Shown in pieces: positions 26,814-46,831 of a DNA stretch of 64,000 bases. This DNA is from Anaeromyces robustus (Eukaryota; Neocallimastigomycota; Neocallimastigomycetes; Neocallimastigales; Neocallimastigaceae): NCBI GenBank assembly GCA_002104895.1, contig MCFG01000143.1, forward strand, positions 28,501 through 92,500. Reading direction: 5' to 3'. Position 1 is the first letter of the stretch, and the number at the start of each line of letters is the position of its first letter. Both the position numbers and the translations under genes were made by a program. The notes below the pieces were generated by a model. That model did no database searches and was not told where the DNA came from. It saw nothing but the letters and a program-made list of their open reading frames with translations.

Positions 26814-28349
26814 ATGAACTCATTAATTCTTGATAGTAAAAATAAATATCAAGCTTCTCTTACTCAATCATCTATATATTTTTCATATATGGATGATAAA
26901 GAAAAACTTAATTGTAATATTTATAGAAAATTTATTTTTAAAAATAATGTTAACGTTTTAAAGTTAAGGAAAGGTTTTGAAGAAATTTTTAAAAAATATG
27001 ATATTTTAAGAACTAAATTTATTGTTCGTAAAATCAATAATGAAAGTAAACTCTTTGTTATTATTGATAATGAAAGCTCCATTAATTTTGAAAATTATTC
27101 ATATGAAAATATGAATTCTTTTATTAGACCTTATAATTTATCGGAAGCTCCCTTAATTAGAGTGGGTTTTATTAAAAATGAAATTTTATTAATCGATGCT
27201 CATAGAATAATTGTTGATGATATTTCTATCGAATTATTAATTCATGAATTAATTGCTTATTATGAAGATGAATTTTTAACTCCTTCTTTAATTCAATTCA
27301 GTGAATATATTATTAATAATAGTGAAACATTTAATAAAAAAATTTTTAGTAATGAATATAAGTATATTGTAGATTTATTTGATTGTGAATATAACGTATT
27401 AACATTTTCTGAAAAGGATAAATATGGAATTAATAAATCAAATATCAGTTTATTAACAAAAAAGACTTTATCTATTGATGGTGAGGATTATAAGATTATT
27501 AATGATTATATTAAATTTAATAATTTGAATCCAAAATTATTTTTTATTAGTATTTATTGTTTTGTTTTGTTTAAATACAGTAATCAAGAATTTATTTATA
27601 CTTCATTTATTAATAATGGTAAAGACCGTCACCTAAATAAAGCATTAGGTATGTTTACTAAAATTCAACCAATTATAGTAAAATATAATAATAATAAATG
27701 TTTATTTAGTGATATCGTCAAAGAAATCTATAATCATTTCCAATTTTATGAAAATAATGATATTTCGTATTCTGAATTATTGGATTCATTATTAAATTTA
27801 TTACCAGTAAATAATTGTTTTATTTTTGAAGTAGATAATTCATTAAAAAATAAAAACTGTAAGATTTTTGAAAATCAAGATAATAAAGAAGATGAAGATA
27901 ACTTTAATTTATTTTTAAATAAACTTTATCAATTTAGTTTAATTTTCAAGGTTAGAGATTGTCAAGATCAATACTTGATTACTATTGATTATTGTCAGGA
28001 GATGTATGATGATTATTTAATTCAAAATATTTTGAATAGTTGCTTAGAAGTCATTAAAAATAAAGATCTTTTATACCAAAATATTCATGAAATTGAATTT
28101 ATTGATCCTCAAGAAAAAAATAGAATTATTGAACATTTTAATTCTGATAAATGTGAATTTATTAATGTTCCCTATCATGTATATTTCCAAAAAATCGTCA
28201 AAGAAGTTCCTAATCAATGTGCTATTATTTTTGAAAATAATAAAATTTCGTATAAAAAGTTAGACGAAATGAGTAATTCATTAGCTTATTTTTTAAGAAA
28301 TAAAGGTGTTCAATATAATGAAATAATTCCATTAATTTGTGATCGATAA
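26814..28349 (+). CDS. NRPS piece 1: starter C domain and beginning of A1
   Basis: 511 codons from ATG 26814, the only sensible start, just after the 30-bp array. Residues 1-440 form a condensation-type domain. The active-site motif reads HRIIVDD (from 27201, residue 130), with Arg for the catalytic second His and Asp for Gly. From about residue 455 an adenylation domain starts (KLDEMSNSLAYFLR). The frame ends at DR-stop, where the equivalent block in other modules continues, so a small indel is likely at about 28345-28355. Confidence 0.8.
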   Translation: MNSLILDSKNKYQASLTQSSIYFSYMDDKEKLNCNIYRKFIFKNNVNVLKLRKGFEEIFKKYDILRTKFIVRKINNESKLFVIIDNESSINFENYSYENMNSFIRPYNLSEAPLIRVGFIKNEILLIDAHRIIVDDISIELLIHELIAYYEDEFLTPSLIQFSEYIINNSETFNKKIFSNEYKYIVDLFDCEYNVLTFSEKDKYGINKSNISLLTKKTLSIDGEDYKIINDYIKFNNLNPKLFFISIYCFVLFKYSNQEFIYTSFINNGKDRHLNKALGMFTKIQPIIVKYNNNKCLFSDIVKEIYNHFQFYENNDISYSELLDSLLNLLPVNNCFIFEVDNSLKNKNCKIFENQDNKEDEDNFNLFLNKLYQFSLIFKVRDCQDQYLITIDYCQEMYDDYLIQNILNSCLEVIKNKDLLYQNIHEIEFIDPQEKNRIIEHFNSDKCEFINVPYHVYFQKIVKEVPNQCAIIFENNKISYKKLDEMSNSLAYFLRNKGVQYNEIIPLICDR

Positions 28350-28381
28350 ATATATATTATATTATTGCTGTTCTTGCAGTT

Positions 28382-31300
28382 ATGAAAGCTGGAGGTGCTT
28401 TCGTATTTATTGATCCATCATATCCAATAGATCGTATTACTTATATGGTCAATGAAGTAAAAGCTAAAATTATTTTGAAATGTATTAATGGTGATGATGA
28501 TGATAATGGAAGTAAATTATTATTAAAGAATGAAAATAATATTTATGAATATAATTTGAAAGAACATGACTACCATCAAAATATTACTGAGATAGCCAAT
28601 ATTAATAAATATACTGATATTTCTTGTGTGTTTTTCACTTCTGGTACTACTGGCCAACCAAAAGGAATATTAATTACTCATTATAATTTTATTAATTTTT
28701 GTGTTTATAGTTTAAAAAGAATTGAATTTAGTAATATTTTAGCATTCACTCCATTTTCATTTAATATTTCAATTATTGAAATATTTTTACCTTTAATTAC
28801 GAGAAAAATAGTTTCTTTATGTAATAATAATGAATTTAATAATCCAGAATTATTGGATAATATTATTAAAAAATATTCTCTAGAAGTATTTGCTCTTCCA
28901 CCAACTAGAATTAAGTATTATATAACAAATGAAAACTTCAGGAATGCTATATATAACGTTAAAAATATTGGCTTTGGTGGTGAAGGAGTTACTGTCGACT
29001 TTTTACAAAATATTATGAAATATACAAAAGCAAAATTGTTTTGTGGTTATGGTTCAACTGAAACCACTTCTATGTGTACTATGGAATATATTAATCGTGA
29101 AGATATTATTAATGGTAAGACAATCACTATTGGTAAAACAAATTTTAATTATAGGATTTATATCTTAGATAAACATTTAAAACCAGTACCAGTAGGAACA
29201 GAGGGTCAAATTTTCGTTGGTGGATATAGTCTCAGTATAGGTTATTTAAATATGGAACAATTAACTAAAGAAAAATTTATTGATTGTCCTTTCGAGAAAA
29301 ACACAAAAATGTATAATACTGGTGATATTGGCAAATGGACTAATGATGGTAAAATAATTTATTTAGGAAGAGAAGATTTTCAAGTCAAAATTCATGGTCA
29401 AAGAATTGAATTATATGAAATTGAAAATAAAATTAAGGAAATAGAAGGAATTTCGTATACAACAGTCATTGATAAAATTAAAAATGACAATGGTGAAAAG
29501 TATTTAATAGGATATTATATTTCATTAAAAAATATCAGTAAAAAATCAATTAGAGATTATTTAAAAAATAAATTACCATTATATATGATTCCAAAGTATT
29601 TTGTTAAAATTGATAAAATCCCAGTAAATGCTTATGGAAAATTGAATAGAAAATTATTACCAGAACCGGATATTAATGATTTATTGATGGAAAATTATGA
29701 AGCTCCTGAAACCCTTATAGAAAAGAAGTTATGTGATATTTTTTGCAAAATATTTAATGTTGATAAAAATAGAATTGGTAAGAATTCAGATTTCTTTGAA
29801 TTGGGTGGTGATAGTTTATTAACCGTTAAAGTTTTAAGCATTATTGAAGAGGAATTTAATATCAAATTAAATATAAAAGATATACTTAAATATTCTATTA
29901 TACAAGAATTAGGTCAATTTATTGAAGAAGTATTATATAACAGTGATAATAAAAATGAGGCTTTTAAATTGGAAAAAATTGAAAAACGAGATGAAAAAGA
30001 ATTTCCAATAACATCACAACAACTAGGTATCTATATTGATTCAATTAAAAATCCAAATAGTATAATTTATAATAATCCAATCGCCTTCCGTTTACATAAA
30101 AATGTTGATATTTCTAAAATTAAGGAAGGATTTAATAATATATTTAATAAACAGGAAATATTAAAAAGTAAATATTATGAAAAAGAAATAAATGATAATA
30201 TTGAAATTTATGGTATTATTGATGAAGAATGTATTCTTATTTTTGAATCTTATACTTATGAAAATGCTCAATCATTTATAAGACCATTTGTTCTTTCTAA
30301 GGCACCATTAATAAGAGTTGGTTTTATTAAGGATGAAGTATTACTTGTAGATATGCATCATATTATTTCAGATGGTACTACAATGGTATTATTAAAGAAT
30401 GAATTAAATAATTATTATAGGAATGGAGAAGTTAAAGAATTAGAAATTCAATTTAAAGATTATTCTATTTACTTAAATGAACAAAAAAATTCTGATTATT
30501 ATTTAAAACAAATGGAATATTATAGAAAAATGTTTAACTGTGATTATGAATTATTAAATATCTCAAAGAAAAATGATATAGTGAATAATGGAAAGGAAAA
30601 CATTGAAAATATTAAAAATATTGAAGAAGAGAGAAAATGTATTTGCAGTAATATTATTAATAAGGAATTAAGTGAAAATATTGAAAAATTTACTAAAAAT
30701 AATAAGATAAGTAAAACATCATTTTTCCTTAGTATTTATAGTAATGTCTTATCAAAATATAGTGGTCAAAATGAAATTTATACTTCTATAATGATTACAA
30801 ATAGAAATAATCGTTATGTTAATGATATGGTGGGAATGTTTGTGACAACTCTACCTTTACTCTTAAAAAATAATAATGATGAAACAAGCTTTTTACAAAA
30901 TATTAAGAACAATATGAATATGTTAATGGATATTTATCAGCATTCAGATATTTCATTTTCCGAATTATTAAATACTTTGAAATTAAAGAAAGTTAATAAC
31001 TCATTTATTTATCAACCAAAAACTATATTTAATATCGATTCTGATGATGAACTCTTTGAGAGTTATAAATATTTAAGTTCAAATTTTGAAGTCAATACTT
31101 CAATTTTAAGAAATAATGATACGAAATTTGATATAACACTTTTTATATATGAAAATAATGATGATTATTATATTTCATTAGAATTTAACAGTGAATTATA
31201 TGAATTTCATTTAATGGATCAAATTCTTAATAGTTATATTGCAGTAATTAAAAATATTTATCAATATCAACAAAATATTAATAGCATCGAATATATTACT

Positions 31301-31648
31301 GATAATGATAAAGAAATAATTCTTAAAAAATTTAATTTTGATATCAATGTTGAAGGATGTGATAAATTTTATCATGAAGAATTTAGTAAAATGGCAAATC
31401 AATATCCTGATAAATGTGCAGTTGTTTATAATGATTTAAGAACTACGTATAGAGAATTGAACGAAATTAGTAATTCATTAGGTCATTATATTAGAGAAAA
31501 TGGTATTGGAAGAAATGATATTATTCCAATTATAAGTGATCGTTCTCCATACTATATTATTAGTATGATTTCAATTTCTAAAGCAGGTGGAGCCTTCTTA
31601 CCAATTGATCCAAAATTACCTATTGAACGTATTCAATTTATTTTATAA
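28382..31648 (+). CDS. NRPS piece 2: A1-T1-C2 and beginning of A2
   Basis: 1,088 codons. A1 has FTSGTTGQPKG, GYGSTETT and GDIGKWTNDG but Asn (28763-28765) at the position of Asp235. T1 has GGDSLLTVKV near 29800. C2 has an intact MHHIISDG near 30355. A2 begins at about 31390 with the DKCAVVYNDL block. It ends at TAA 31646-31648 exactly where a near-identical module at 43.5 kb reads GAA, so this is a nonsense change. The listed ATG (28382) is internal to A1, not a true start. Confidence 0.85.
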   Translation: MKAGGAFVFIDPSYPIDRITYMVNEVKAKIILKCINGDDDDNGSKLLLKNENNIYEYNLKEHDYHQNITEIANINKYTDISCVFFTSGTTGQPKGILITHYNFINFCVYSLKRIEFSNILAFTPFSFNISIIEIFLPLITRKIVSLCNNNEFNNPELLDNIIKKYSLEVFALPPTRIKYYITNENFRNAIYNVKNIGFGGEGVTVDFLQNIMKYTKAKLFCGYGSTETTSMCTMEYINREDIINGKTITIGKTNFNYRIYILDKHLKPVPVGTEGQIFVGGYSLSIGYLNMEQLTKEKFIDCPFEKNTKMYNTGDIGKWTNDGKIIYLGREDFQVKIHGQRIELYEIENKIKEIEGISYTTVIDKIKNDNGEKYLIGYYISLKNISKKSIRDYLKNKLPLYMIPKYFVKIDKIPVNAYGKLNRKLLPEPDINDLLMENYEAPETLIEKKLCDIFCKIFNVDKNRIGKNSDFFELGGDSLLTVKVLSIIEEEFNIKLNIKDILKYSIIQELGQFIEEVLYNSDNKNEAFKLEKIEKRDEKEFPITSQQLGIYIDSIKNPNSIIYNNPIAFRLHKNVDISKIKEGFNNIFNKQEILKSKYYEKEINDNIEIYGIIDEECILIFESYTYENAQSFIRPFVLSKAPLIRVGFIKDEVLLVDMHHIISDGTTMVLLKNELNNYYRNGEVKELEIQFKDYSIYLNEQKNSDYYLKQMEYYRKMFNCDYELLNISKKNDIVNNGKENIENIKNIEEERKCICSNIINKELSENIEKFTKNNKISKTSFFLSIYSNVLSKYSGQNEIYTSIMITNRNNRYVNDMVGMFVTTLPLLLKNNNDETSFLQNIKNNMNMLMDIYQHSDISFSELLNTLKLKKVNNSFIYQPKTIFNIDSDDELFESYKYLSSNFEVNTSILRNNDTKFDITLFIYENNDDYYISLEFNSELYEFHLMDQILNSYIAVIKNIYQYQQNINSIEYITDNDKEIILKKFNFDINVEGCDKFYHEEFSKMANQYPDKCAVVYNDLRTTYRELNEISNSLGHYIRENGIGRNDIIPIISDRSPYYIISMISISKAGGAFLPIDPKLPIERIQFIL

Positions 31649-31663
31649 GAAGTCAATCCAAAA

Positions 31664-32164
31664 ATGATTTTATATAGTAATAATCAAAATATAATTGTTG
31701 AATTATTACATTTAAATGAAAATTATAGAGTATATGATGTTCAAAAGCATAATTATGAATTAAATATTGAGTCCATTGATAATATAAATAAACCAGATGA
31801 TATATGCTATGTATTATTTACATCTGGTACCACAGGTAAACCAAAAGGAGCATTAATTACTCATTTTAATATCTATAATAATTTAAGATCTTACGATTTC
31901 AATGGTAACTGTGATGATCATTTATGTTTATATAATTTAATAAAACATGAGAATATAAACAATATTTTAGGTATAACCAATTTTTCATTTGATATTGCTA
32001 ATAATGAAATAACATTTAGTTTAATTCATGGATATACCACTGTATTAGTAGATGAAAAAATAAGTGAAGATATTCAATCACTAAGTAAGTATATTATAAA
32101 TAATAATGTTGACATTATTAACACTACACCTACAAGATTTAAATTATTTATGGAAAATGATTAA
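31664..32164 (+). CDS. NRPS piece 3: middle of A2
   Basis: Same frame as the preceding piece, reopened after the stop. It carries [11 protein letters not shown] and FSFDIANNE, so A2 keeps the Asp that A1 lacks. It ends at TAA 32162-32164, where the twin module at 44.0 kb has two GAA codons in a row. Confidence 0.75.
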
Positions 32165-32227
32165 TTTAAGCAAACTCTTAAGAATATTAAAGTAGCAATA
32201 TTTTCAGGAGAAGAATTACCATTTAAT

Positions 32228-32875
32228 TTGTGTATAGAAATTCATCAATATTCCAATTGTAAAATTATTAATGGATATGGACCTACTGAATGTTATTTCT
32301 GTTCGTATAAAGAAATTAATGAAAGAGTAGAAAACAAAATTACGATAGGTAAACCAATTTGTAATTACACATTATATGTATTAGATAAATATTTGAAACC
32401 GGTTCCAATTGGAGTTGAAGGCGAAATATTTATTGGAGGATATGGTGTAGGTAAAGGATATCTTAATCGTGAAGAATTAACAAAAGAAAAATTCATTAAT
32501 AATCCATTTAACTATAATGATGATAACCATAATGAAATAATATACAGAACAGGAGATCTTGGAAAATGGACAAGAAATGGAGAAATTGAATATTTAGGAA
32601 GAATTGATTTCCAAGTTAAGATTCATGGACAAAGAGTTGAATTAGATGAAATTGAAAGTATAGTTAATGAGATAAAAGATATTAAACTTGGAGTTGTAAT
32701 TGATAAAAAGAGAGAAAATGGAGAAAAATATTTAGTATGTTATTATCAATTATATGAAAATAATGAAAATGAAATTGATGGAGCTGATATTCGAAAATAT
32801 TTAAAGAATAAATTACCATTATACATGATTCCTAATTATTATAAAAAGATTAATGAAATTAACGATAAGTGGTAA
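32228..32875 (+). CDS. NRPS piece 4: end of A2
   Basis: Still in frame with pieces 2 and 3. Contains GYGPTEC, GEIFIGGYGVGKGYL, GDLGKWTRNG and VKIHGQRVELDEIE. It ends by frameshift near 32862, where a 5-bp stretch present in the twin at about 44722 is missing between short att repeats (slippage-type loss). Confidence 0.75.
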   Translation: MCIEIHQYSNCKIINGYGPTECYFCSYKEINERVENKITIGKPICNYTLYVLDKYLKPVPIGVEGEIFIGGYGVGKGYLNREELTKEKFINNPFNYNDDNHNEIIYRTGDLGKWTRNGEIEYLGRIDFQVKIHGQRVELDEIESIVNEIKDIKLGVVIDKKRENGEKYLVCYYQLYENNENEIDGADIRKYLKNKLPLYMIPNYYKKINEINDKW

Positions 32876-34814
32876 ATTAAATAGAAAAGAATTACCAGAA
32901 ATCGATAATGGAGATATTATTAAGGAGGAATATGCTGCACCAGAAACAGAAACTGAAAAATTAATTTGTCATATTTATAGTAAATTATTTAACATTAATG
33001 AAAATGAAATTGGAAAAACAAGTGATTTCTTTGAATTAGGAGGAGATAGTTTGAATGCTATTAGACTTATTTCTATTTTTGAAAAAGAATTAAATCTTAA
33101 AGAAATATATGAACATTCATTAATAGTTGATTTAAGTAAATATATAGAAGAAATATTAAATAGTGATGATCATTCCAAAGATGTAGAAATAATTAAGAAA
33201 CGTAATAGTAAAGAATTCCCAATTACATCACAACAATTAGGTGTATATATTGATTCAATTAAAAACGAAAATAATATTATATATAATATGCCATCTATAT
33301 TTAAATTAAGTAAAAACGTCAATATTGAAAAGATTAAAGAAGGATTTAATGAAATATTCCAAAATCAAGAAATTCTTAAAACAAAGTATTATTCTAAAGA
33401 AGTCAATGGAAAAGAAGAAATATATGGATTTATTAATGATGAATGTAATTTAGAATTTGAAGAATACACATATGACAATGCTTCAATATTTATTAGTCCA
33501 TTTGATTTATCTAAAGCACCATTAATTCGTATTGGATTTATTGGAAATGACTATTTATTAATCGATACACATCATATTATTTCTGATGGTGCTACTTCAT
33601 TAATTATCATGAATGAATTAAATAAATATTATAATGAAGGAAATATTTCAGAATTAGAAATTCAATATAGTGATTATGCCATTGATATGAAAGAAAAACA
33701 AGATAATGGAATTTATGATAAACAAATTGAATTTTATAGAAAAATGTTTAATACTGAATATGAATTATTAAATATTCCAAAAAGAATAGAAACAGCTTTT
33801 GAGAATGAAGATTACACATTTGATGAATTCGATAATGAAAGTAATAGTGGAAATTGTATAAGTCATATTGACGGATTAACATCATATTCAGTTAATGAAT
33901 ATATTAAATCCAATGGTATAAGTAAAAGTGCATTTTTCATTACAGTATATGGTTATATTTTATCAAAATATAGTGGACAAGATAAAATTTATACTTCCAT
34001 TATTAATGCTAATAGAAATAATCATTATGTTGAAAATATGATAGGTATGTTTGTTAGTACACAATCAGTATTATTAAATTATGATAATAACGAAGTTTCA
34101 TTTAATGAAGTTACTAAACAAAATATGAAATGTTTAATGGAAATATATAATAATCAAGATATCTCATTTTCTGAATTATCTAATACATTGAAATTGAAAA
34201 AACTCAACAATGCATTTGTTTATCAACCAAAAGGTATTTTCACTAATAAATCTAATAATTCTATATTTTCGGAAGAAATTAATGAAGAAATATATTTGAT
34301 GTATGAAAATACTAATGAATTGAATAAAGATATAAATACCAAATTTGATATTACATTCTATATTGTTGAAAAAGATGAAGAGTATTTAATAAATATCAAT
34401 TACAATAAAAAAATATACGAACAATCTACAATGGAAAATATTATGAATAGTTATATTGAAACTATCAAACATATAAATGAATTTAATCAAAATGTAAATA
34501 CAATTGAATATATTATGAAAGAAGAAAAAGAACGTATTCTTTATGAATTTAATAGTAATGAAATAAATTATGAAAAGAATCAACTATTCCATGAAGAATT
34601 CAAAAAAATAGCTCAATTATATCCAAATAAATGTGCCATTGTTTGTAATGATAAAGAAATTACATATTTAGAATTAGATGAAATGTCAAATTCATTAGCA
34701 CACTATTTAAGAAGTCAAAATGTAGGTAGAGGAGACATTATTCCTATTATTAGTGAACGTTTATATTATTATATTATTGCCCTTCTAGGTACATTAAAAT
34801 CAGGAGCAGCTTAG
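32853..34814 (+). CDS. NRPS piece 5: T2-C3 and beginning of A3
   Basis: Real coding content begins at about 32862 (ISGKLNRKELPE). T2 has GGDSLNAIRL near 33036, followed by a 12-bp in-frame shortening relative to other T domains. C3 has THHIISDG near 33570. A3 starts at about 34580 and the frame is lost at SGAA-stop (34814), where sequence of the GGAF block is missing. Confidence 0.8.
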   Translation: MKLTISGKLNRKELPEIDNGDIIKEEYAAPETETEKLICHIYSKLFNINENEIGKTSDFFELGGDSLNAIRLISIFEKELNLKEIYEHSLIVDLSKYIEEILNSDDHSKDVEIIKKRNSKEFPITSQQLGVYIDSIKNENNIIYNMPSIFKLSKNVNIEKIKEGFNEIFQNQEILKTKYYSKEVNGKEEIYGFINDECNLEFEEYTYDNASIFISPFDLSKAPLIRIGFIGNDYLLIDTHHIISDGATSLIIMNELNKYYNEGNISELEIQYSDYAIDMKEKQDNGIYDKQIEFYRKMFNTEYELLNIPKRIETAFENEDYTFDEFDNESNSGNCISHIDGLTSYSVNEYIKSNGISKSAFFITVYGYILSKYSGQDKIYTSIINANRNNHYVENMIGMFVSTQSVLLNYDNNEVSFNEVTKQNMKCLMEIYNNQDISFSELSNTLKLKKLNNAFVYQPKGIFTNKSNNSIFSEEINEEIYLMYENTNELNKDINTKFDITFYIVEKDEEYLININYNKKIYEQSTMENIMNSYIETIKHINEFNQNVNTIEYIMKEEKERILYEFNSNEINYEKNQLFHEEFKKIAQLYPNKCAIVCNDKEITYLELDEMSNSLAHYLRSQNVGRGDIIPIISERLYYYIIALLGTLKSGAA

Positions 34815-34846
34815 ATCCAGATTTCCCTAAAGAACGTATTGAATAC

Positions 34847-37800
34847 ATGGTTAATGAAGTTAAAGCTAAATTAATTTTGAAATACATAACAAATTCCGAA
34901 AATGAAAATAAAATTTCATTTAATGATATCATAATTTATTCTATTGATAATCACGATTACACTAATAATAAGCACATGATAAATAATGTTAACAAGAGTG
35001 AAGATTTATGTTACGTATTATTCACATCAGGAACTACAGGAAAACCCAAAGGAACATTAATTTCACATAACAATTTAATTAATTATTGTTTATATAGTCA
35101 AACAATAAATGGAAAAGAAGATATTTATGGAAATGATCTTGACAATATATTAGCCATTTGTAAGTTTTCACATGATATATCTATTGGAGAAATTAATTAT
35201 TCTTTGGTGAAAGGATATAAAATAATATTAGCAAATGACAATGAATATAACAATCCCGAATTATTTAGTTCATTAATATTAAAACACGATGTTCAATATA
35301 TATTTACAGTTCCTTCAAGATTCGATAGTTATTTATATAATGAAAGATTTGTTAAATCAATTAAAAAAGTCAAATGGGTATTGTTAGGAGGAGAAAAATT
35401 AGAAAAAAGAACAATTGAAAAAATAAGAGAAAATAGTGAATGTAACATATTAAGTGTATATGGACCTACAGAAACAAGTGTAGTTTCAAACATTAAAATA
35501 CTTGATTACAATGTTAAAGACATTAAAACCATTACTATTGGAAAACCTTTATGTAATTTCAAAATATATATTTTAGATAAATATTTGAAGCCAGTTCCAA
35601 TTGGAGTATCAGGCGAAATCTTCATAGCAGGAGAAGGAGTTGGTAAAGGATACCTTAATCGTGATGATTTAAATAAAGAAAAGTTTATTGATTGTCCATA
35701 TTATACAAATCCAAAGAATGATAAATTATGTAAAATGTACAAAACAGGAGATCTTGGTAAATGGACAGAAGATGGAGAAATAATATGTTTAGGAAGAGTT
35801 GATTTCCAAGTAAAAATCAATGGACAAAGAATTGAATTAGAAGAAATTGAAAAAGTCATTAATGAAATTGATGGAATTAAACAAAATGTTGTAATTGATA
35901 AAATTAATGATAATGGAAATAAATATCTTATTTGTTATTATGTTGGTAAAGAAAATATGAAAACAAGAAAAATTCAAGAAAGTTTAAAGATAAAACTTCC
36001 ACAATACATGATTCCAAATTACTTTAAACGTATTGATAAATTTGAATTAACAAATAATGGTAAATTAAATAGAAAAGCATTACCAGAAACAGATATTCAA
36101 GATATGATTAAAGAAGAATATGTAGCACCAGAAACAGAAACTGAAAAATTAATTTGTCACATATATAGTAAATTATTAAATATTGATGAAAATGAAATCG
36201 GTAAAAATAATGATTTCTTTGAATTAGGAGGAGATAGTTTGAATGCTATTAGACTTATTTCTATGATTGAAAAAGAATTAAATATTAAATTAAATATTAA
36301 AGAAATATATGAACATTCATTAATAATTGATTTAAGTAAATATATAGAAGAAATATTAAATAATAATGATAAATCCAAAGATGTAGAAATAATTAAGAAA
36401 CATAATTGTAAAGAATTCCCAATTACATCACAACAATTAGGTGTATATATTGATTCAATTAAAAACGAAAATACCATTATATATAATATGCCATTTTCAT
36501 ATAAATTAAATACAAACATTAATATTGAAAAGATTAAAGAAGGATTTAATGAAATATTCCAAAATCAAGAAATATTTAAAACAAAATATTACTCGAAAGA
36601 AGTTAATGGAAAAGAAGAAATTTATGGATTTATTGATGATGAATGTAATTTAGAATTTGAAGAATACACATATGATAATGTTTCATCATTTATTCGTCCA
36701 TTTGATTTATCTAAAGCACCATTAATTCCTATTGGATTTATTGGAAATGAATATTTATTAATAGATATACATCATGTCATTGCAAATGGATCCGCCATTT
36801 TAATTATCATGAATGAATTAAACAAATATTATAATGAAGGAAATATTTCAGAATTAGAAATTCAATATAGTGATTATGCCATTGATATGAAAGAAAAACA
36901 AGATAATGGATTTTATGATAAACAAATTGAATTTTATAAAAATATGTTTAATACAGAATATGAATTAGCAAAACTTCCAGAAAAAGAAAAAGATAATAAA
37001 TTAGAAAATGCTAATAATTTCAATATGAATAATTTATGTTCAAGAATTATTGATAAATCAACGAGTGATATGATAAATGAATTTATTAAAAAGAATGGAA
37101 TTACTAAAACATTATTTTTCCTTACAATTTATGGATTTGTATTGTCTAAATATAGTGGTGAAGATATTATATATACTTCAGTAATTAATGCTAATAGAAG
37201 TAATCATTATATTGAAAATATGGTAGGTATGTTTGTAAGTACTTTACCAATATTATTAAAATATAACAAAGAAAATGAATCATTTATAGATACAATAAAA
37301 GAAAATATGAACACATTAATTGAAATATTTAATAATCAAAATATTTCTTTAGCAGAATTAAATAAAATATTAAAATTAAAGAAAATTAATAATTTATTTG
37401 TTTTCCAACCTAATGTATCAATTAATGGAAATAAATTAAATGAAAATGAAATATTTGATAATGAAGAATATGAAGATGTTTTAACAATGATTAATGAGAA
37501 TAACAATAATATTAATAAATCGAAATTTGATATAGAATTTAGTATTATAGAAAAAGAAAATGAATATTTAATTTTAATTCAATATGATAATTCATTATAT
37601 GATAATGAAATTATTGGAAATTTAACTGATAGTTATGTAGAAGTTATTAAAAATATAAACAAATTTGAAAACCAAAATATTGACATTGAATATATTCCAT
37701 TAAATGAAAAACAAATGATTATTGAAAAATTTAATTCTGATATTAATATTGAAGGATGTGATAAATTTTATCATGAAGAGTTTAGTAAAATTGCAAAACA

Positions 37801-39163
37801 ATATCCTGATAAATGCGCAGTTGTTTATAATGATTTAAGAATTACGTATAGAGAATTGAACGAAATGAGTAATTCATTAGGTCATTATATTAGAGAAAAT
37901 GGTAGTGGAAGAAATGATATTATTCCAATTATAAGTGATCGTTCTCCATACTATATTATTAGTATGATTTCAATTTCTAAAGCAGGTGGAGCCTTCTTAC
38001 CAATTGATCCAAAATTACCTATTGAACGTATTCAATTGATTTTAGAAGAAATTAAACCAAAAATGATTTTATATAGTAATACTCAAGATATTATTGCTGA
38101 ATTATTACACTTAAATGAAGATTATAGAGTATATGACGTTCAAAAGCATCATTATGAATTAAATATTAATTCTATTGAAATTATAAATAAACCAGATGAT
38201 TTATGTTATGTATTATTCACATCAGGTACTACTGGTAAACCAAAAGGAACATTAATTACTCATTTTAATTTATATAATTACATTAGATCATCGCAAGGAA
38301 ATTACGATAATTACTCTATATATAATCTATTTATTAAATGTAATAAAATAAATAATATATTGGGTATTACTAATTTCTCATTTGATCCATCTCATATAGA
38401 AACAATTAATAGTTTAATTCACGGATTAAATATAATATTAGCTGATGAGAATATCAGAAATAATGTTTTATTATTATCAGAATATATATTAGATAATAAT
38501 GTTGAACTTATCAAAACAACACCAACTGTATTAAAACTATTTATGGATAACAAGGAGTTTAGAGAATGTATTGGAAAAGTTAAAGCAATTGTTTTAGGAG
38601 GAGAAGTGTTATCAATGGATTTATGTAAATATGTTCATCAATATTCTAATTGTAATATTTACAATGAATATGGACCAACAGAATGTACTATTGCTTGTTC
38701 ATGTAAATTAATTGATGAAAGAGTTGATAATCAAATAAATATTGGAAAACCATTATGTAATTGTAAAGTATATATACTTGATAAATATTTAAAACCAGTT
38801 CCAATTGGAGTTGAAGGAGAAATATTTATTGGAGGATATGGTGTAGGTAAAGAATATCTTAATCGTGAAGAATTAACAAAAGAAAAATTCATTAATAATC
38901 CATTTAATTATGAAAATGATAGTCATAATGAAATAATATACAGAACAGGCGATCTTGGAAAATGGACAAGAAATGGAGAAATAGAATATTTAGGAAGAAT
39001 TGATTTCCAAATTAAGATTCATGGACAAAGAGTTGAATTAGATGAAATTGAAAGTATAATTCAAGAAATTAAAGATATAAAACAATGTGTTGTTATTGAT
39101 AAAAAGAAAGAAAATGAAGAAAAATTTTTAGTATGTTATTATCAATTATATGACAATAATTGA
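34847..39163 (+). CDS. NRPS piece 6: A3-T3-C4-A4
   Basis: 1,438 codons, the longest piece. A3 has [11 protein letters not shown] (about 35010), and T3 has GGDSLNAIRL (about 36226). C4 reads HHVIANG at 36770-36790, with Asn for the motif Asp (a sister domain at 42.2 kb keeps HHVIADG). A4 is complete up to VKIHGQR-type block 8 (reads IKIHGQRVEL). It then runs into a foldback junction at 39130-39175 where the rest of A4, the whole T4 and the first half of C5 are absent. Confidence 0.85.
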   Translation: MVNEVKAKLILKYITNSENENKISFNDIIIYSIDNHDYTNNKHMINNVNKSEDLCYVLFTSGTTGKPKGTLISHNNLINYCLYSQTINGKEDIYGNDLDNILAICKFSHDISIGEINYSLVKGYKIILANDNEYNNPELFSSLILKHDVQYIFTVPSRFDSYLYNERFVKSIKKVKWVLLGGEKLEKRTIEKIRENSECNILSVYGPTETSVVSNIKILDYNVKDIKTITIGKPLCNFKIYILDKYLKPVPIGVSGEIFIAGEGVGKGYLNRDDLNKEKFIDCPYYTNPKNDKLCKMYKTGDLGKWTEDGEIICLGRVDFQVKINGQRIELEEIEKVINEIDGIKQNVVIDKINDNGNKYLICYYVGKENMKTRKIQESLKIKLPQYMIPNYFKRIDKFELTNNGKLNRKALPETDIQDMIKEEYVAPETETEKLICHIYSKLLNIDENEIGKNNDFFELGGDSLNAIRLISMIEKELNIKLNIKEIYEHSLIIDLSKYIEEILNNNDKSKDVEIIKKHNCKEFPITSQQLGVYIDSIKNENTIIYNMPFSYKLNTNINIEKIKEGFNEIFQNQEIFKTKYYSKEVNGKEEIYGFIDDECNLEFEEYTYDNVSSFIRPFDLSKAPLIPIGFIGNEYLLIDIHHVIANGSAILIIMNELNKYYNEGNISELEIQYSDYAIDMKEKQDNGFYDKQIEFYKNMFNTEYELAKLPEKEKDNKLENANNFNMNNLCSRIIDKSTSDMINEFIKKNGITKTLFFLTIYGFVLSKYSGEDIIYTSVINANRSNHYIENMVGMFVSTLPILLKYNKENESFIDTIKENMNTLIEIFNNQNISLAELNKILKLKKINNLFVFQPNVSINGNKLNENEIFDNEEYEDVLTMINENNNNINKSKFDIEFSIIEKENEYLILIQYDNSLYDNEIIGNLTDSYVEVIKNINKFENQNIDIEYIPLNEKQMIIEKFNSDINIEGCDKFYHEEFSKIAKQYPDKCAVVYNDLRITYRELNEMSNSLGHYIRENGSGRNDIIPIISDRSPYYIISMISISKAGGAFLPIDPKLPIERIQLILEEIKPKMILYSNTQDIIAELLHLNEDYRVYDVQKHHYELNINSIEIINKPDDLCYVLFTSGTTGKPKGTLITHFNLYNYIRSSQGNYDNYSIYNLFIKCNKINNILGITNFSFDPSHIETINSLIHGLNIILADENIRNNVLLLSEYILDNNVELIKTTPTVLKLFMDNKEFRECIGKVKAIVLGGEVLSMDLCKYVHQYSNCNIYNEYGPTECTIACSCKLIDERVDNQINIGKPLCNCKVYILDKYLKPVPIGVEGEIFIGGYGVGKEYLNREELTKEKFINNPFNYENDSHNEIIYRTGDLGKWTRNGEIEYLGRIDFQIKIHGQRVELDEIESIIQEIKDIKQCVVIDKKKENEEKFLVCYYQLYDNN

Positions 39164-39175
39164 TAATAACATACT
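39130..39175. repeat. Perfect 20-bp inverted repeat at the A4/C5 deletion junction
   Basis: Left arm 39130-39149, right arm 39156-39175, six-base loop. The left arm is normal A-domain coding sequence found in sister modules. The right arm has no counterpart there and is the reverse complement of the left, so it appears to have been templated during the event that deleted the following domains. Confidence 0.9.
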
Positions 39176-40333
39176 GAGTATGAATTAGTTAATATTCCTA
39201 AAAATGAAGTTGATTCAGAAAGGGATATTAAAGGACTGGATATTGAAAATAGTAATATTAATAATATCACTAGAATAATTGATAGTTCTACAAGTAAATT
39301 AATTAATAATTATGTAAGAAATCATGGATTTAGTAAAGCATTATTTTTCTTTATAATTTACGGATATATTTTATCAAAATATGGTGGTCAGGATACTATC
39401 TATTCGTCAATAATGAATGCAAATCGTGAAAATCATTATAAAGAAAACATGATAGGAATGTTTGTAAGTACGATTCCAGTATTATTAAAATATAATAATG
39501 AAAATGAAGAAAATACACTTTTAGATTTTATCAAAGTAAATAATAATATATTATTTGAAATCCAAAATAATAAAGATGTTTCGTTTTCAGAATTAATGAA
39601 TTCAATAAAACTAAAAAAAATTAATAATTCATTTATATTCCAACCAAAAATAGATTCAACAAATTCTGAAAATAGTTCAATATTTAATGTGAAAGATCAA
39701 AAAGATGACATTGATATATTTAAGAGTAATAATACTAACGAAGAAATAAATGATAATAATTCCAAATTTGATATTACTTTCTTTGTTATTGAAGATAACG
39801 AAAAATATATAGTATCTATTGAATATAATTCAAATATTTACGATAATAATACTATCAATAATATAATTAGTAGTTATATAGAAATATTTAATCACATTGA
39901 AAAATATGATAATAAAATTAAAGAAATTGAATATATTCCTGATAATCATAAAGAAATAATTCTTAATAAGTTTAATTCAGATATTAATAAAAATGATTAT
40001 GAGAAATTATATCATGAAGAATTCAGTAAAATTGCTAAATTTTATCCTGAAAGAATTGCTATTATATATAATGAATTAAAATTAAGTTATAAGGAATTAG
40101 ATGAAATGACTAATTCTTTAGGTTATTATTTAAGAAAAATTGGAATTACTAGGAATGATATTATTCCTATAATAAGTGATCGTTCACCTTATTATGTTAT
40201 AGGAGTAACAGCAATATCTAAAGCGGGAGGAGCATTCTTACCAATAGATAAAAAATTACCAATTGAACGTATTAAATATATATTAGAAGAAGTTAGACTA
40301 AAAATAATTTTATATAATAAAAGATATAATTGA
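39173..40333 (+). CDS. NRPS piece 7: second half of C5 and beginning of A5
   Basis: Open from 39173 (TEYELVNIPKNEV) although the first ATG is at 39412-39414. It contains the C-domain blocks IYSSIMNANRENHYKENMIG and GMFVSTIPVLLKY, then the A5 start (DELKLSYKELDEMTNS-like block) and SKAGGAFLPIDKKLP. It lacks the HHxxxDG half of the C domain. It ends by frameshift in an A run near 40320. Confidence 0.75.
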   Translation, partial: TEYELVNIPKNEVDSERDIKGLDIENSNINNITRIIDSSTSKLINNYVRNHGFSKALFFFIIYGYILSKYGGQDTIYSSIMNANRENHYKENMIGMFVSTIPVLLKYNNENEENTLLDFIKVNNNILFEIQNNKDVSFSELMNSIKLKKINNSFIFQPKIDSTNSENSSIFNVKDQKDDIDIFKSNNTNEEINDNNSKFDITFFVIEDNEKYIVSIEYNSNIYDNNTINNIISSYIEIFNHIEKYDNKIKEIEYIPDNHKEIILNKFNSDINKNDYEKLYHEEFSKIAKFYPERIAIIYNELKLSYKELDEMTNSLGYYLRKIGITRNDIIPIISDRSPYYVIGVTAISKAGGAFLPIDKKLPIERIKYILEEVRLKIILYNKRYN

Positions 40334-41276
40334 TAAAATATTATTATTAAATAAATCTTACATAGTATATAATTTAAAAAAACATAATTATGGATTAAAT
40401 AATGATTCTATTAATAATATTAATGAACCAGATGATATATGCTATGTTTTATTTACATCAGGAACAACTGGTAAACCAAAAGGAGCATTAATTAGTCACT
40501 TCAATATATATAATAACTTAAGATTCTTTGATTCTAATAATTATGATGATCATTTGAGCTTATGTAATTTAATTAAAAGAGAAAATATTAATAATATTTT
40601 AGGTATTACTAATTTCTCATTTGATATTTCACATAATGAAATAACATTTAGTTTAATTCATGGTTTAACCATTACTTTAGTGGACGATTCCACTAGTGAA
40701 AATACTGAATTGTTAATTAATATGATATTAAAGAATAATGTTGAATTTATTAATACTACACCAACAAGGTTTAAGCTTTTTATGGAAAATGAAAAATTTA
40801 GAAAAATATTAAAATTTATTAAAGCAATTGTTTTCATCGGTGAAGAATTACCATTAGATTTATGCAAAAACATTCATCAATACTCAAATTGTACAATTAT
40901 TAATGGATATGGTCCTACCGAATGTACAGTAACATGTACATATAAGGAAATTAACATAGAAAATTGTAATAAAATTACAATTGGTAAACCTCAATGTAAT
41001 TATAAAATTTATATATTAGATAAATTTTTAAAACCAGTTCCTATTGGAGTTGAAGGAGAAATATTTATTGGAGGATATGGTGTAGGTATAGGTTATCTTA
41101 ATCGTGAAGAATTAACAAAAGAAAAATTCATTAATAATCCATTTAACTATAATAATGATAACCATAATGAAATAATATACAGAACAGGAGATCTTGGAAA
41201 ATGGACAAGAAATGGAGAAATTGAATATTTAGGAAGAATTGATTTCCAAGTTAAGATTCATGGACAAAGAATTTAA
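40322..41276 (+). CDS. NRPS piece 8: most of A5
   Basis: The frame is open from about 40322 (KDIIDKILLLNKSYIVYNL); the first ATG-led part begins at 40554. It has [11 protein letters not shown] near 40455, FSFDISHNE, GYGPTEC and GDLGKWTRNG. It ends at TAA 41274-41276 in HGQRI-stop, where sister modules have GAA (HGQRVELDE). The same frame continues after it. Confidence 0.75.
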
Positions 41277-44200
41277 TTAGGTGAAATTGAAAGTATAGTT
41301 AATGAGATAAAAGATATTAAACATGGAGTTGTAATTGATAAAAAGAGAGAAAATGGAGAAAAATATTTAGTATGTTATTATCAATTATTTGACAATAATG
41401 AAAATGAAATTGATGGAGCTGATATTCGTAAATATTTAAAGAATAAATTACCATTATACATGATTCCTAATTATTATAAAAAGATTAATGAAATTCCATT
41501 AACGATAAGTGGTAAATTAAATAGAAAAGAATTACCAGATATCGATAATGGAGATATTATTAAGGAGGAATATATTGCACCAGAAACAGAAACTGAAAAA
41601 TTAATTTGTCATATTTACAGTAAATTATTTAATATTGATGAAAATGAAATTGGAAGAAATAATGATTTCTTTGAATTAGGAGGAGATAGTTTGAATGCTA
41701 TTAGACTTATTTCTATATTTAAAAAAGAATTAAATATTAAATTAAATATTAAAGAAATATATGAACATTCATTAATTATTGATTTAAGTAAATATATAGA
41801 AGAAATATTAAATAGTGATGATCATTCCAAAGATGTAGAAATAATTAAGAAACGTAATAGTAAAGAATTCCCAATTACATCACAACAATTAGGTGTATAT
41901 ATTGATTCAATTAAAAACGAAAATACCATTATATATAATATGCCATTTTCATATAAATTAAATACAAACATTAATATTGAAAAGATTAAAGAAGGATTTA
42001 ATAAAATATTCAAAAATCAAGAAATATTTAGAACAAAGTATTATTCTAAAGAAGTTAATGGAAAAGAAGAAATTTATGGATTTATTGATGATGAATGTAA
42101 TTTAGAATTTGAAGAATACACATATGATAATGTTTCATCATTTATTCGTCCATTTGATTTATCTAAAGCACCATTAATTCGTATTGGATTTATTAGAAAT
42201 GACTATTTATTAATAGATATACATCATGTCATTGCAGATGGATCCGCCATTTTAATTATTTTAAATGAATTAAACAATTATTATAATGAAGGAAATATTT
42301 CAGAATTAGAAATTCAATATAGTGATTATGCCATTGATATGAAAGAAAAACAAGATAATGGATTTTATGATAAACAAATTGAATTTTATAGAAAAATGTT
42401 TAATAATGAATATGAAATAGCTAAAATTCCAGAAAAAGAAAAAGATAATAAATTAGAAAATGCTAATAATTTCAATATGAATAGTTTATGTTCAAAAATT
42501 ATTGATAAATCAACGAGTGATATGATAAATGAATTTATTAAAAAGAATGGAATTAGTAAAACATCATTTTTCCTTACAATTTATGGATTTGTATTATCTA
42601 AATATAGTGGTCAAGATATTATATATACTTCAGTATTAAATGCTAATAGAAGTAATCATTATATTGAAAATATGGTAGGTATGTTTGTAAGTACTTTACC
42701 AATATTATTAAAATATGACAAAGAAAATGAACCATTTATAGATACAATAAAAGAAAATATGAACACATTAATTGAAATATTTAATAATCAAAATAATTCT
42801 TTAGCAGAATTAAATAAAATATTAAAATTAAAGAAAATTAATAATTTATTTATTTTCCAACCTAACGTATCAATTAATGAAAATAAATCAAATGGAAATA
42901 AATCAAATGAAAATGAAATATTTGATAATGAAGAATATGAAGATGTTTTATCAATGGTTGATAAAACTAATAATAATAATAAATCGAAATTTGATATAGA
43001 ATTTAGTATTATAGAAAAAGAAAATGAATATTTTATTTTAATTCAATATGATAATACATTATATGAAAATGAAATTATTGGAAATTTAATTGATAGTTAT
43101 ATAGAAGTTATTAAAAATGTAAACAAATTTGAAAATCAAAATATTGATATTGAATATCTTCCATTAAATGAAAAACAAATGATTATTGAAAAATTTAATT
43201 CTGATATTAATGTTGAAGGATGTGATAAATTTTATCATGAAGAATTTAGTAAAATGGCAAATCAATATCCTGATAAATGTGCAGTTGCTTATAATGATTT
43301 AAGAATTACGTATAGAGAATTGAACGAAATGAGTAATTCATTAGGTCATTATATTAGAGAAAATGGTATTGGAAGAAATGATATTATTCCAATTATAAGT
43401 GATCGTTCTCCATACTATATTATTAGTATGATTTCAATTTCTAAAGCAGGTGGAGCCTTCTTACCAATTGATCCAAAATTACCTATTGAACGTATTCAAT
43501 TTATTTTAGAAGAAGTCAATCCAAAAATGATTTTATATAGTAATAATCAAAATGTAATTGATGAATTATTACATTTAAATGAAAATTATAGAGTATATGA
43601 CGTTCAAAAGCATAATTATGAATTAAATATTGAGTCCATTGATAATATAAATGAACCAGATGATATATGCTATGTATTATTTACATCTGGTACCACAGGT
43701 AAACCAAAAGGAGCATTAATTACTCATTTCAATATCTATAATAATTTAAGATCTTACGATTTCAATGGTAACTGTGATGATCATTTATGTTTATATAATT
43801 TAATAAAACATGAGAATATAAACAATATTTTAGGTATAACCAATTTTTCATTTGATATTGCTAATAATGAAATAACATTTAGTTTAATTCATGGATATAC
43901 CACTGTATTAGTAGATGAAAAAATAAGTGAAGATATTCAATCACTAAGTAAGTATATTATAAATAATAATGTTGACATTATTAACACTACACCTACAAGA
44001 TTTAAATTATTTATGGAAAATGAAGAATTTAAGCAAACTCTTAAGAATATAAAAGTAGCAATATTTTCAGGAGAAGAATTACCATTTAATTTGTGTATAG
44101 AAATTCATCAATATTCCAATTGTAAAATTATTAATGGATATGGACCTACTGAATGTTATTTCTGTTCGTATAAAGAAATTAATGAAAGAGAAGAAAACAA

Positions 44201-45002
44201 AATTACGATAGGTAAACCAATTTGTAATTACACATTATATGTATTAGATAAATATTTGAAACCGGTTCCAATTGGAGTTGAAGGCGAAATATTTATTGGA
44301 GGATATGGTGTAGGTAAAGGATATCTTAATCGTGAAGAATTAACAAAAGAAAAATTCATTAATAATCCATTTAACTATAATGATGATAACCATAATGAAA
44401 TAATATACAGAACAGGAGATCTTGGAAAATGGACAAGAAATGGAGAAATTGAATATTTAGGAAGAATTGATTTCCAAGTTAAGATTCATGGACAAAGAGT
44501 TGAATTAGATGAAATTGAAAGTATAGTTAATGAGATAAAAGATATTAAACTTGGAGTTGTAATTGATAAAAAGAGAGAAAATGGAGAAAAATATTTAGTA
44601 TGTTATTATCAATTATATGAAAATAATGAAAATGAAATTGATGGAGCTGATATTCGAAAATATTTAAAGAATAAATTACCATTATACATGATTCCTAATT
44701 ATTATAAAAAGATTAATGAAATTCCATTAACGATAAGTGGTAAATTAAATAGAAAAGAATTACCAGAAATCGATAATGGAGATATTATTAAGGAGGAATA
44801 TGCTGCACCAGAAACAGAAACTGAAAAATTAATTTGTCATATTTACAGTAAATTATTTAACATTGATAAAAATGAAATTGAAAAAACAAGTGATTTCTTT
44901 GAATTAGGAGGAGATAGTTTGAATGCTATTAGACTTATTTCTATATTTGAAAAAGAATTAAATATTAAATTAAATGTTAAAAAATTTATGAACATTCACT
45001 AA
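41277..45002 (+). CDS. NRPS piece 9: end of A5, T5-C6-A6-T6
   Basis: In frame with piece 8; first ATG at 41460. T5 GGDSLNAIRL near 41686, C6 HHVIADG near 42226, A6 with [11 protein letters not shown] near 43680 and [10 protein letters not shown]6 GGDSLNAIRL near 44908. A6 is nearly identical to A2. A hand alignment of the A6 specificity pocket gives roughly D-I-N-N-I-S-G-F-C-K, which I cannot tie to a known substrate. It ends by a one-base frame change at about 44980. Confidence 0.85.
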   Translation, partial: LGEIESIVNEIKDIKHGVVIDKKRENGEKYLVCYYQLFDNNENEIDGADIRKYLKNKLPLYMIPNYYKKINEIPLTISGKLNRKELPDIDNGDIIKEEYIAPETETEKLICHIYSKLFNIDENEIGRNNDFFELGGDSLNAIRLISIFKKELNIKLNIKEIYEHSLIIDLSKYIEEILNSDDHSKDVEIIKKRNSKEFPITSQQLGVYIDSIKNENTIIYNMPFSYKLNTNINIEKIKEGFNKIFKNQEIFRTKYYSKEVNGKEEIYGFIDDECNLEFEEYTYDNVSSFIRPFDLSKAPLIRIGFIRNDYLLIDIHHVIADGSAILIILNELNNYYNEGNISELEIQYSDYAIDMKEKQDNGFYDKQIEFYRKMFNNEYEIAKIPEKEKDNKLENANNFNMNSLCSKIIDKSTSDMINEFIKKNGISKTSFFLTIYGFVLSKYSGQDIIYTSVLNANRSNHYIENMVGMFVSTLPILLKYDKENEPFIDTIKENMNTLIEIFNNQNNSLAELNKILKLKKINNLFIFQPNVSINENKSNGNKSNENEIFDNEEYEDVLSMVDKTNNNNKSKFDIEFSIIEKENEYFILIQYDNTLYENEIIGNLIDSYIEVIKNVNKFENQNIDIEYLPLNEKQMIIEKFNSDINVEGCDKFYHEEFSKMANQYPDKCAVAYNDLRITYRELNEMSNSLGHYIRENGIGRNDIIPIISDRSPYYIISMISISKAGGAFLPIDPKLPIERIQFILEEVNPKMILYSNNQNVIDELLHLNENYRVYDVQKHNYELNIESIDNINEPDDICYVLFTSGTTGKPKGALITHFNIYNNLRSYDFNGNCDDHLCLYNLIKHENINNILGITNFSFDIANNEITFSLIHGYTTVLVDEKISEDIQSLSKYIINNNVDIINTTPTRFKLFMENEEFKQTLKNIKVAIFSGEELPFNLCIEIHQYSNCKIINGYGPTECYFCSYKEINEREENKITIGKPICNYTLYVLDKYLKPVPIGVEGEIFIGGYGVGKGYLNREELTKEKFINNPFNYNDDNHNEIIYRTGDLGKWTRNGEIEYLGRIDFQVKIHGQRVELDEIESIVNEIKDIKLGVVIDKKRENGEKYLVCYYQLYENNENEIDGADIRKYLKNKLPLYMIPNYYKKINEIPLTISGKLNRKELPEIDNGDIIKEEYAAPETETEKLICHIYSKLFNIDKNEIEKTSDFFELGGDSLNAIRLISIFEKELNIKLNVKKFMNIH

Positions 45003-46831
45003 TAATTGATTTAAGTGAATACATAGAAGAAATATTAAATAGTGATGATCATTCCAAAGATGTAGAAATAATTAAGAAACATAATTGTAAAGAATTCCCA
45101 ATTACGTCACAACAATTAGGTGTATATATTGATTCAATTAAAAATGAAAATACTACACTTTATAATATTCCATTATCATTTAAATTAAGTAAAAACGTCA
45201 ATATTGAAAAGATTAAAGAAGGATTTAATGAAATATTCCAAAATCAAGAAATTCTTAAAACAAAGTATTATTCTAAAGAAGTCAATGGAAAAGAAGAAAT
45301 ATATGGATTTATTGATGATGAATGTAATTTAGAATTTGAAGAATATAATTATGAAAATGCTTCATCATTTATTCGTCCATTTGATTTATCTAAAGCACCA
45401 TTAATTCATATTGGATTTATTGAAAACGACTATTTATTAATCGATACACATCATATTATTTCTGATGGTGCTACCTCATTAATTATCATGAATGAATTAA
45501 ATAAATATTATAATGAAGGAAATATTTCAGAATTGGAAATTCAATATAGTGATTATGCTATTAACATGAAAGAAAAACAAGATAATGGAATTTATGATAA
45601 ACAAATTGAATATTATAAAAATATGTTTAATACTGAATATGAAATAGCAAAAATTCCAGAAAAAGAAAAGGATGATAAATTAATAAATGATAAGAATTCC
45701 AATATGAATAGTTTTTGTTCGGAAATTATTGATGAATCAACATCTATTATAATAAATGAATTTATTAAAAAGTATGGAATTACTAAAACATCATTTTTCC
45801 TTACAATTTATGGATTTGTATTATCTAAATATAGTAGTCAAGATATTATATATACTTCAGTAATTAATGCTAATAGAAGTAATCATTATATTGAAAATAT
45901 GATAGGTATGTTTGTAAGTACTTTACCAATACTATTAAAATATGAAAATGAAAATAATTCATTTACAGATATAATAAAAAGAAATATGAATACATTAATT
46001 GAAATATTTAGTAATCAAAATATTTCTTTAGCAGAATTAAATAAAACATTAAAATTGAAAAAAATTAATAATTTATTTATTTTCCAACCTAAAGTATCAA
46101 TTGATGAATCAAATATAATAGAGAATTCTGTATTCAGCAGTGATGCAACTGATGATGAATTTGAAATAGTTAATAATAAAACTGTTGTTTCTAAATTTGA
46201 TATTGAATTTGGTATTATCGAAAAAGAAAATGAATATTTAATTTCCATTCAATATGATAATTCATTATATGATAATGAAATTATTGAAAATATAATTGAT
46301 AGTTATATTGAAGTAACTAAAAATATAAATAGTTTTTCATATAGTATTAAAAATATTGAATATATTGCAGTAAATGAAAAAGAAATGATTATTAATAAAT
46401 TCAATTCAGAAGTTAATGTTGAAGATTGTGATAAATTATATCATGAAGAATTTATTAATATCGTTAAACAATGTCCTGATAAATGTGCCATAGTTTATAA
46501 TGATTTAAGAATTAATTATAAAGAATTGAATGAAATGAGTAATTCATTAGGTCATTATATTAGAGAAAATGGTATTGGAAGAAATGATATTATTCCAATT
46601 ATAAGTGATCGTTCTCCATACTATATTATTAGTATGATTTCAATTTCTAAAGCAGGTGGAGCCTTCTTACCAATTGATCCAAAATTACCTATTGAACGTA
46701 TTCAATTGATTTTAGAAGAAATTAAACCAAAAATGATTTTATATAGTAATAATTCAAACTTTAAAGAATTTATAAGACCTTATGATATTACCAAAGATTT
46801 ATTAATAAGAGTAGTATTATTGAATATTTGA
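45003..46831 (+). CDS. NRPS piece 10: C7 and truncated A7
   Basis: Open frame from about 45003 without an ATG until 45488. C7 has THHIISDG near 45450 and the usual C-domain tail. A7 begins normally (about 46430) to SKAGGAFLPIDPKLP and ILYSNN. At about 46755 it jumps straight into a C-domain phrase (FKEFIRPYDITKDLLIRV), so the rest of A7, a T domain and the start of the next C domain are missing. Confidence 0.8.

Follow-up and report, generated by a model that had tools for sequence, protein, structure and literature searches.

How does a nonribosomal peptide synthetase (NRPS) begin its product when its first condensation domain and its first adenylation domain both depart from the canonical residues? 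This question is raised by a 64,000-nucleotide stretch of the genome of the anaerobic gut fungus Anaeromyces robustus (contig MCFG01000143.1, positions 28,501 to 92,500; hereafter the window, which lies on contig C50; the genome measures 70 Mb), in which two divergent genes, NRPS1 and NRPS2, open with such a module. In the initial annotation, the first condensation (C) domain of both proteins was described as having Arg in place of the catalytic second His of HHxxxDG, and the first adenylation (A) domain as lacking Asp235, the residue that binds the α-amino group; an inactive starter C domain and a starter that is not an ordinary α-amino acid were proposed. The residues are as described: the C motif reads HRIVVDS at 9548–9528 on the minus strand (NRPS1) and HRIIVDD from 27201 on the plus strand (NRPS2), in both cases from residue 130; Val (codon GTT, 7973–7971, minus strand) and Asn (codon AAT, 28763–28765, plus strand) stand at the position of Asp235, the Val being placed opposite the equivalent residue of LgrA in a HMMER alignment; and both A domains have GS for GP in the YGPTE block, which reads YGSTE. 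What had been taken for a double deviation in two NRPSs is conserved and specific to starter modules, but it marks a genome-wide class and not a pair, and its two halves are not strictly coupled. The reading preferred here, with a probability of about 0.6, is that the first C domain (C1*) is a non-catalytic scaffold and that the first A domain (A1) loads a 2-oxo or 2-hydroxy acid, which the second C domain (C2) would join to the first amino acid.

NRPS1 occupies 3..9935 of the minus strand as a single uninterrupted frame with Pfam Condensation, AMP-binding and PP-binding domains; the frame extends past the window to contig position 17241, and 3311 of its 7065 amino acids (aa) are in the window. 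The domain order is read as C1*-A1-T1, where T is the carrier domain, followed by five C-A-T modules and a terminal C domain, with six A domains overall. C1* (8616..9935, minus strand) opens at the first Met of the frame, and A1 (7047..8552, minus strand) has the code VVMGVGSAFK. As for NRPS2, the first open frame (26814..28349, plus strand) holds C1* (26841–28130) and the first A1 residues, and the rest of A1, with the code NIIAGGGSMK, lies in a second frame (28352..29674); between them, at 28350..28381, the homology runs up to a break in one frame and resumes without a gap in another. The span 26814–28800 given in the initial annotation crosses this break near 28350, so the deviating residues of C1 and A1 belong to different frames of NRPS2. 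The assembly thus holds no unbroken NRPS2 protein, and the view that both genes encode working proteins is not supported.

C and A domains were gathered from parts of 20 contigs, which gave 77 C-domain rows of at least 150 aa, with the active-site motif readable in 67 and unreadable in 10. The starter counts refer to the loci that were read; NRPS-like loci on contigs C590, C491, C383, C3, C200 and C59 were left out, and the gene fronts on contigs C230, C400 and C10 are outside the fetched sequence. HR replaces HH in 13/13 readable starter C domains, versus 0/54 of the other readable ones, which have HH (49/49) or, when terminal, [SDN]H (5/5). The frames of the 13 HR domains open 4–37 aa ahead of the domain, which is hence N-terminal; 12 of them have a Met in that stretch or at the first domain residue, and the one on contig C307 has none there. 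The HH domain of contig C10, the most upstream one found there, was considered as a starter and discarded: its frame has a carrier domain ahead of it, which makes it internal. The motif residues H, R, I and D are invariant across 11 starters, 10 of which are 40–67% identical to the first row of the comparison, and all 13 readable starters have also lost the Gly that ends HHxxxDG. The starter C1 retains the PF00668 profile and the C fold and lacks the HHxxxDG catalytic motif; the C1 of NRPS2 matches Pfam PF00668 with 100.8 bits across positions 3–453, and among the 92 columns at least 95% fixed in 43 internal C domains, 26 are kept in the starters and 23 replaced.

The A1 set comprises 17 domains, namely those behind 12 of the 13 HR domains (on contig C435, C1 alone was read) and five behind a partial C1-type domain (contigs C106, C253, C259, C431 and C166). 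Asp235 is lost in 16 of them, with Val in 9, Asn in 4 (NRPS2 and contigs C307, C47 and C106), Ile in 2 and Gly in 1, and the proline of YGPTE (P325) is lost in exactly those 16, being replaced by Ser, Cys, Thr, Gln or Leu. Both residues are retained in the starter of contig C279, which combines HR in C1 with a canonical A1, and in 45/45 internal A domains readable at both sites; of the internal rows set aside, nine could be read at a single site, where the residue is canonical, and one at neither. The statement that later modules of both NRPSs are normal holds for HH, Asp and GP wherever these are readable, save that one internal C motif of NRPS2 is HHVIANG. The starter A1 looks catalytically competent, since motifs A3, A7 and A8 are retained in 12 aligned starters and the A10 lysine in 16/17 (it is unreadable in one). 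The model of NRPS1 A1 has a predicted local distance difference test score (pLDDT) of 79.0; the A-domain models show that the A fold is kept and say nothing on pocket geometry.

Each starter set forms a single clade with 100/100 support: the C-domain tree sets the 13 starters apart from the other classes (internal, 44; terminal, 5; bacterial, 13), and the A-domain tree sets the 17 apart from 42 internal ones. The odd module therefore most simply arose once. The contrast between starter and other domains exceeds chance, but the starter rows are not independent draws, and a Fisher value for the association does not count as independent evidence. Judged by its sequences, one inherited class of initiation module, C1*-A1-T1, fronts many NRPSs of this genome, and the association of HR with the loss of Asp235 and of the proline is one inherited state with later variation; contig C279 either never lost Asp and Pro or regained both. 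Arg is encoded by AGA in 10 and by CGT in 3 of these starter C domains, which means that the residue outlasted codon turnover. The ratio of nonsynonymous to synonymous substitution rates (dN/dS) is 0.19–0.42 in five C1 pairs, 0.10–0.41 in five A1 pairs and 0.20–0.67 in six internal C pairs, which points to an Arg-bearing C domain that is maintained under selection and is not decaying. The local decay that the initial annotation had set against its own proposal, in which two adjacent genes would simply be degenerating, is contradicted for the class and barely credible: NRPS2 is indeed broken in several places, but NRPS1 is an intact frame of 7065 aa, and the same changes run through the whole starter clades (13 C and 17 A domains), where dN/dS in the pairs tested (0.10–0.42) is well below 1.

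The clearest precedent for the A1 changes is StsA, the keto-acid A domain of the cereulide pathway, in which Asp is replaced by I306 and the conserved Pro by M415, and the mutation M415P abolishes activity (PMC11253843). The LgrA mutants P483M and P483A show keto-acid activity that is slightly but significantly raised (PMC11253843); counted along the alignment, P483 falls on the proline of YGPTE. Evolution of TycA for phenyllactate gave a variant with YGLTE in 7ywk, whereas 7ywj has YGPTE, the two being listed as wild type and L313P mutant; this evolved TycA has Ala for Asp, and EnSynA1, a hydroxy-acid A domain, has Gly (PMC11253843). The starters here are like StsA in that Asp235 and the YGPTE proline are lost together (16/17, NRPS1 and NRPS2 included), and 12 of the 17 have the pattern of the hydroxy-acid type (EnSynA1 and evolved TycA), with a small or aliphatic residue (Val, Ile or Gly) at 235 and a residue other than Pro in the YGPTE block, the others having Asn (4) or Asp (1) at 235. 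Since StsA and the evolved TycA lost both residues, the paired losses fit a 2-oxo or 2-hydroxy acid. StsA differs in the residues chosen, the starters having Val, Asn, Ile or Gly at 235 and Ser, Cys, Thr, Gln or Leu at 325, and also in that the starters have a C domain in front and no ketoreductase insert.

With a scaffold C1* and an oxo or hydroxy acid starter, A1 would activate a carboxylic acid bearing an α-oxo or α-hydroxy group instead of an α-amine: without Asp235 the pocket would no longer grip the ammonium group, and without the YGPTE proline the backbone of the G-x peptide could touch the α-oxygen. The acid would be loaded onto T1 and taken as the donor by an ordinary C2, which would acylate the second residue. 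C1* would be non-catalytic, with Arg replacing the catalytic His, and would stay as the structural partner of A1 in a C-A platform; it would catalyze nothing because there is no upstream carrier and the neighbouring T1 would carry no amine. Release would probably take place via the terminal C domain and, in the case of a hydroxy acid, ring closure on the starter hydroxyl is possible. The earlier proposal of an inactive starter C domain and a non-amino-acid starter thus survives as the most simple reading, with two of the substrates it envisaged now disfavoured. Aryl acids are disfavoured because the A5 motif of aryl-acid A domains (DhbE type) differs (PMC11253843): QQVxFMAEGL is absent, and all 17 starters keep [YF][GA]xTE. 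What speaks against β-amino acids is that the known A domains for such substrates (VinN type) keep D235 (PMC11253843), a residue that 16/17 starters have lost.

Several points weigh against a scaffold C1* with an oxo or hydroxy acid starter. Val235 alone proves nothing, since a Val there does not keep McyG from activating l-Phe (PMC11253843); the Asn235 of NRPS2 and contigs C307, C47 and C106 is not hydrophobic, unlike its StsA counterpart; a ketoreductase belongs to the published keto-acid module, but the starters read showed none; and contig C279 couples HR to a canonical A1. On the side of C1*, mutation of the second His is not always fatal to a C domain (PMC11546977), and mere loss of function would not account for how strictly Arg is conserved. 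It should also be noted that the association counts rest on one or few evolutionary events, and that the substrate class is deduced by comparing sequences.

The McyG case (V227; PMC11253843) and contig C279, where the same type of module has a canonical pocket, would suit an A1 that, although Asp235 is gone, still takes a common hydrophobic amino acid, with C1* as a dead leftover. We regard this as unlikely: exactly these 16 starters have also lost the YGPTE proline, which every internal A domain readable at that site retains, and selection of an amino acid does not explain this.

The conserved Arg, in turn, could belong to an active starter C domain that acylates the T1-bound unit from acyl-coenzyme A, with Arg for His, either as lipoinitiation or by forming an ester on a hydroxy acid. 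The N-terminal position is that of Cs domains, a complete C fold is predicted for the starter of contig C424, and some second-His mutants are active, ORF18 functioning with HQxxxDM (PMC11546977). We nevertheless find an active C1* doubtful: the Gly of HHxxxDG is also lost and a quarter of the fixed columns (23/92) are replaced, a starter without an amine would offer no usual acceptor, and four starters yielded no trace of the lobe in which the motif lies. In these four (contigs C431, C259, C253 and C106), the frame opens close to where the C-terminal lobe of C1 begins, and tblastn detected no C1 N-terminal lobe in the fetched upstream DNA; the copies on contigs C431 and C259 are near-identical, and contig C166, which partly reads N, was not assigned. 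They are apparent natural half-C domains before A1, and the N-terminal, catalytic lobe thus seems dispensable for retaining the rest of the module.

A further use for such a fold is offered by the X domain of glycopeptide antibiotic NRPSs, a C fold with HRxxxDD (PMC11546977), and C1* could be an X-like inactive domain that recruits a tailoring enzyme in trans. The change from His to Arg is the same, HRxxxD being found in 13/13 starters and the exact HRxxxDD in three of them (NRPS2 and contigs C307 and C424). The predicted model of the C424 starter C domain, which lies outside the window (pLDDT 81.9), has the C domains of LgrA and TycC as its best Foldseek matches; the X domains 4tx3 and 4tx2 match it too, but canonical C domains match equally or better, and in the VIA-align rows for this model, canonical, X and starter C domains are mixed within a few Z units and so are not told apart. 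When the starter C profile was compared with the PDB, 27 sequences matched, TycC5-6 and LgrA best, and no X domain was among them. X domains have cytochrome P450s as their partners, and P450 matches numbered zero in a six-frame search of this genome, which a gene with short exons could escape (the control search succeeded in 7/14 genomes). The position is also N-terminal rather than terminal. An X-like role is disfavoured because no P450 matched and no sequence kinship was seen, and it appears very improbable.

The scaffold role proposed for C1* has its nearest parallel in the fungal cyclodepsipeptide synthetases for enniatin, beauvericin and bassianolide, whose N-terminal C1 is described as non-catalytic (PMC11546977). 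In enniatin synthetase, the A1 behind this C1 has Gly for Asp and takes a hydroxy acid (PMC11253843), and these synthetases also have a C-terminal C domain for release; removal of C1 from enniatin-type synthetases leaves 1–55% of the product (PMC5674221). The enniatin type has two A domains, in contrast to the linear line of many modules here (six A domains in NRPS1), and the C1 here has HRxxxD and forms its own clade; the likeness is one of description and not of sequence comparison. CalA from Mortierella alpina is another parallel, as it is hexamodular, comes from an early-diverging fungus and has an inactive truncated starter C domain; it differs in its dual epimerization/condensation domains and thioesterase, and neither an HR signature nor an A1 pocket change is mentioned in the accessible part of its description (PMC9893682).

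The missing reductase sets the starters apart from the known keto-acid module. NRPS1 A1 has 502 aa, inside the size range of the internal A domains, which leaves no room for a ketoreductase insert, and no ketoreductase in cis was found in any starter read. The 16 ketoreductase matches genome-wide include none on contigs with a read starter; ketoreductase-like matches are present on contigs C200 (two) and C590 (one), which hold A domains at loci outside those read. A wider claim is that anaerobic gut fungi evolved one dedicated initiation module, consisting of a non-condensing C1 with Arg and an A1 devoid of Asp235 and the A5 proline, that it stands at the front of many of their giant NRPSs, and that a whole unexplored family of fungal peptides accordingly begins with diverse 2-oxo or 2-hydroxy acids without a built-in ketoreductase. 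This claim is tentative, and we would put it a little short of even odds.

To our knowledge, the parts of this module are of known kinds and their fixed combination in one starter lineage is new; no description of HR or keto-acid starters in gut fungi was recognized in the titles and abstract beginnings of the open-access papers listed by the literature searches. Work on gut-fungal natural products covering four species counts 146 biosynthetic genes, including NRPSs (PMC8106346). A starter rule common to many NRPSs of one genome yields a testable prediction for this set of 146 genes, namely 2-oxoacyl caps or depsipeptides. The starters would also provide, in one clade, a natural series (Val, Asn, Ile, Gly and Asp at 235; Ser, Cys, Thr, Gln, Leu and Pro at 325) for the switch from amine to α-oxygen, the member canonical at both sites being that of contig C279.

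Regarding the origin of the HR starter, the starter C profile was run against 84,980 bacterial and archaeal species and matched four loci with 22–24% identity; where the profile aligns, these read HHxxxDG, and the two HRLFxE matches in them fall at other places. In three genomes of those loci and 11 genomes of one family, the C domains score at most 164 bits among the matches listed. IMG/VR contigs gave no match. No bacterial donor of the HR starter was found in these scans, which rely on short exact patterns and cover no fungi.

The terminal C domains of NRPS1 (contig C50, 17667–18869) and NRPS2 (window 46807–47760) are divergent, have the motif NHxxxDG and fall in one clade with three others (contigs C158, C166 and C230); they resemble fungal terminal C domains. 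The remainder of NRPS2 (28382..48138, plus strand) has frame switches and in-frame stops up to its terminal C domain, which is followed by a low-complexity tail. Its homology switches frame near 28355, 32850, 34820, 40340, 44982 and 46800, with several in-frame stops besides. Introns were considered as the cause and rejected because the homology resumes in another frame and the gaps, of at most 19 bases, are too short; NRPS2 is either a decaying gene or poorly assembled. Its C1 is 97% identical to that of the starter on contig C307, in which the frame is open across the site of the first break of NRPS2.

Single in-frame stops also occur in the NRPS matches on contigs C126, C158, C166, C431, C54, C253 and C305. 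On contig C158, the C domains at 38803 and 48481 are identical in protein sequence, as are the A domains at 40474 and 50152, suggesting a recent module duplication within one NRPS. Contig C93 bears an NRPS in a single open frame of 12319 aa, far larger than NRPS1. The genome also has at least 150 CBM_10 (PF02013) domains, a module that acts as the cellulosome dockerin of gut fungi; this number and the lack of P450 matches agree with an anaerobic gut fungus as the source. In the window, an open reading frame (ORF) of the PD-(D/E)XK transposase family (PDDEXK_2) lies at 21397–22206, between the divergent NRPS1 and NRPS2, and the last part of the ORF at 46828–48138, at the end of NRPS2, consists of KDNNHDNKEKN low-complexity repeats. 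Finally, the ORF at 60851–62332 has weak matches to LysM (about at the Pfam cut-off) and to a chitin-binding domain (below the Pfam cut-off).

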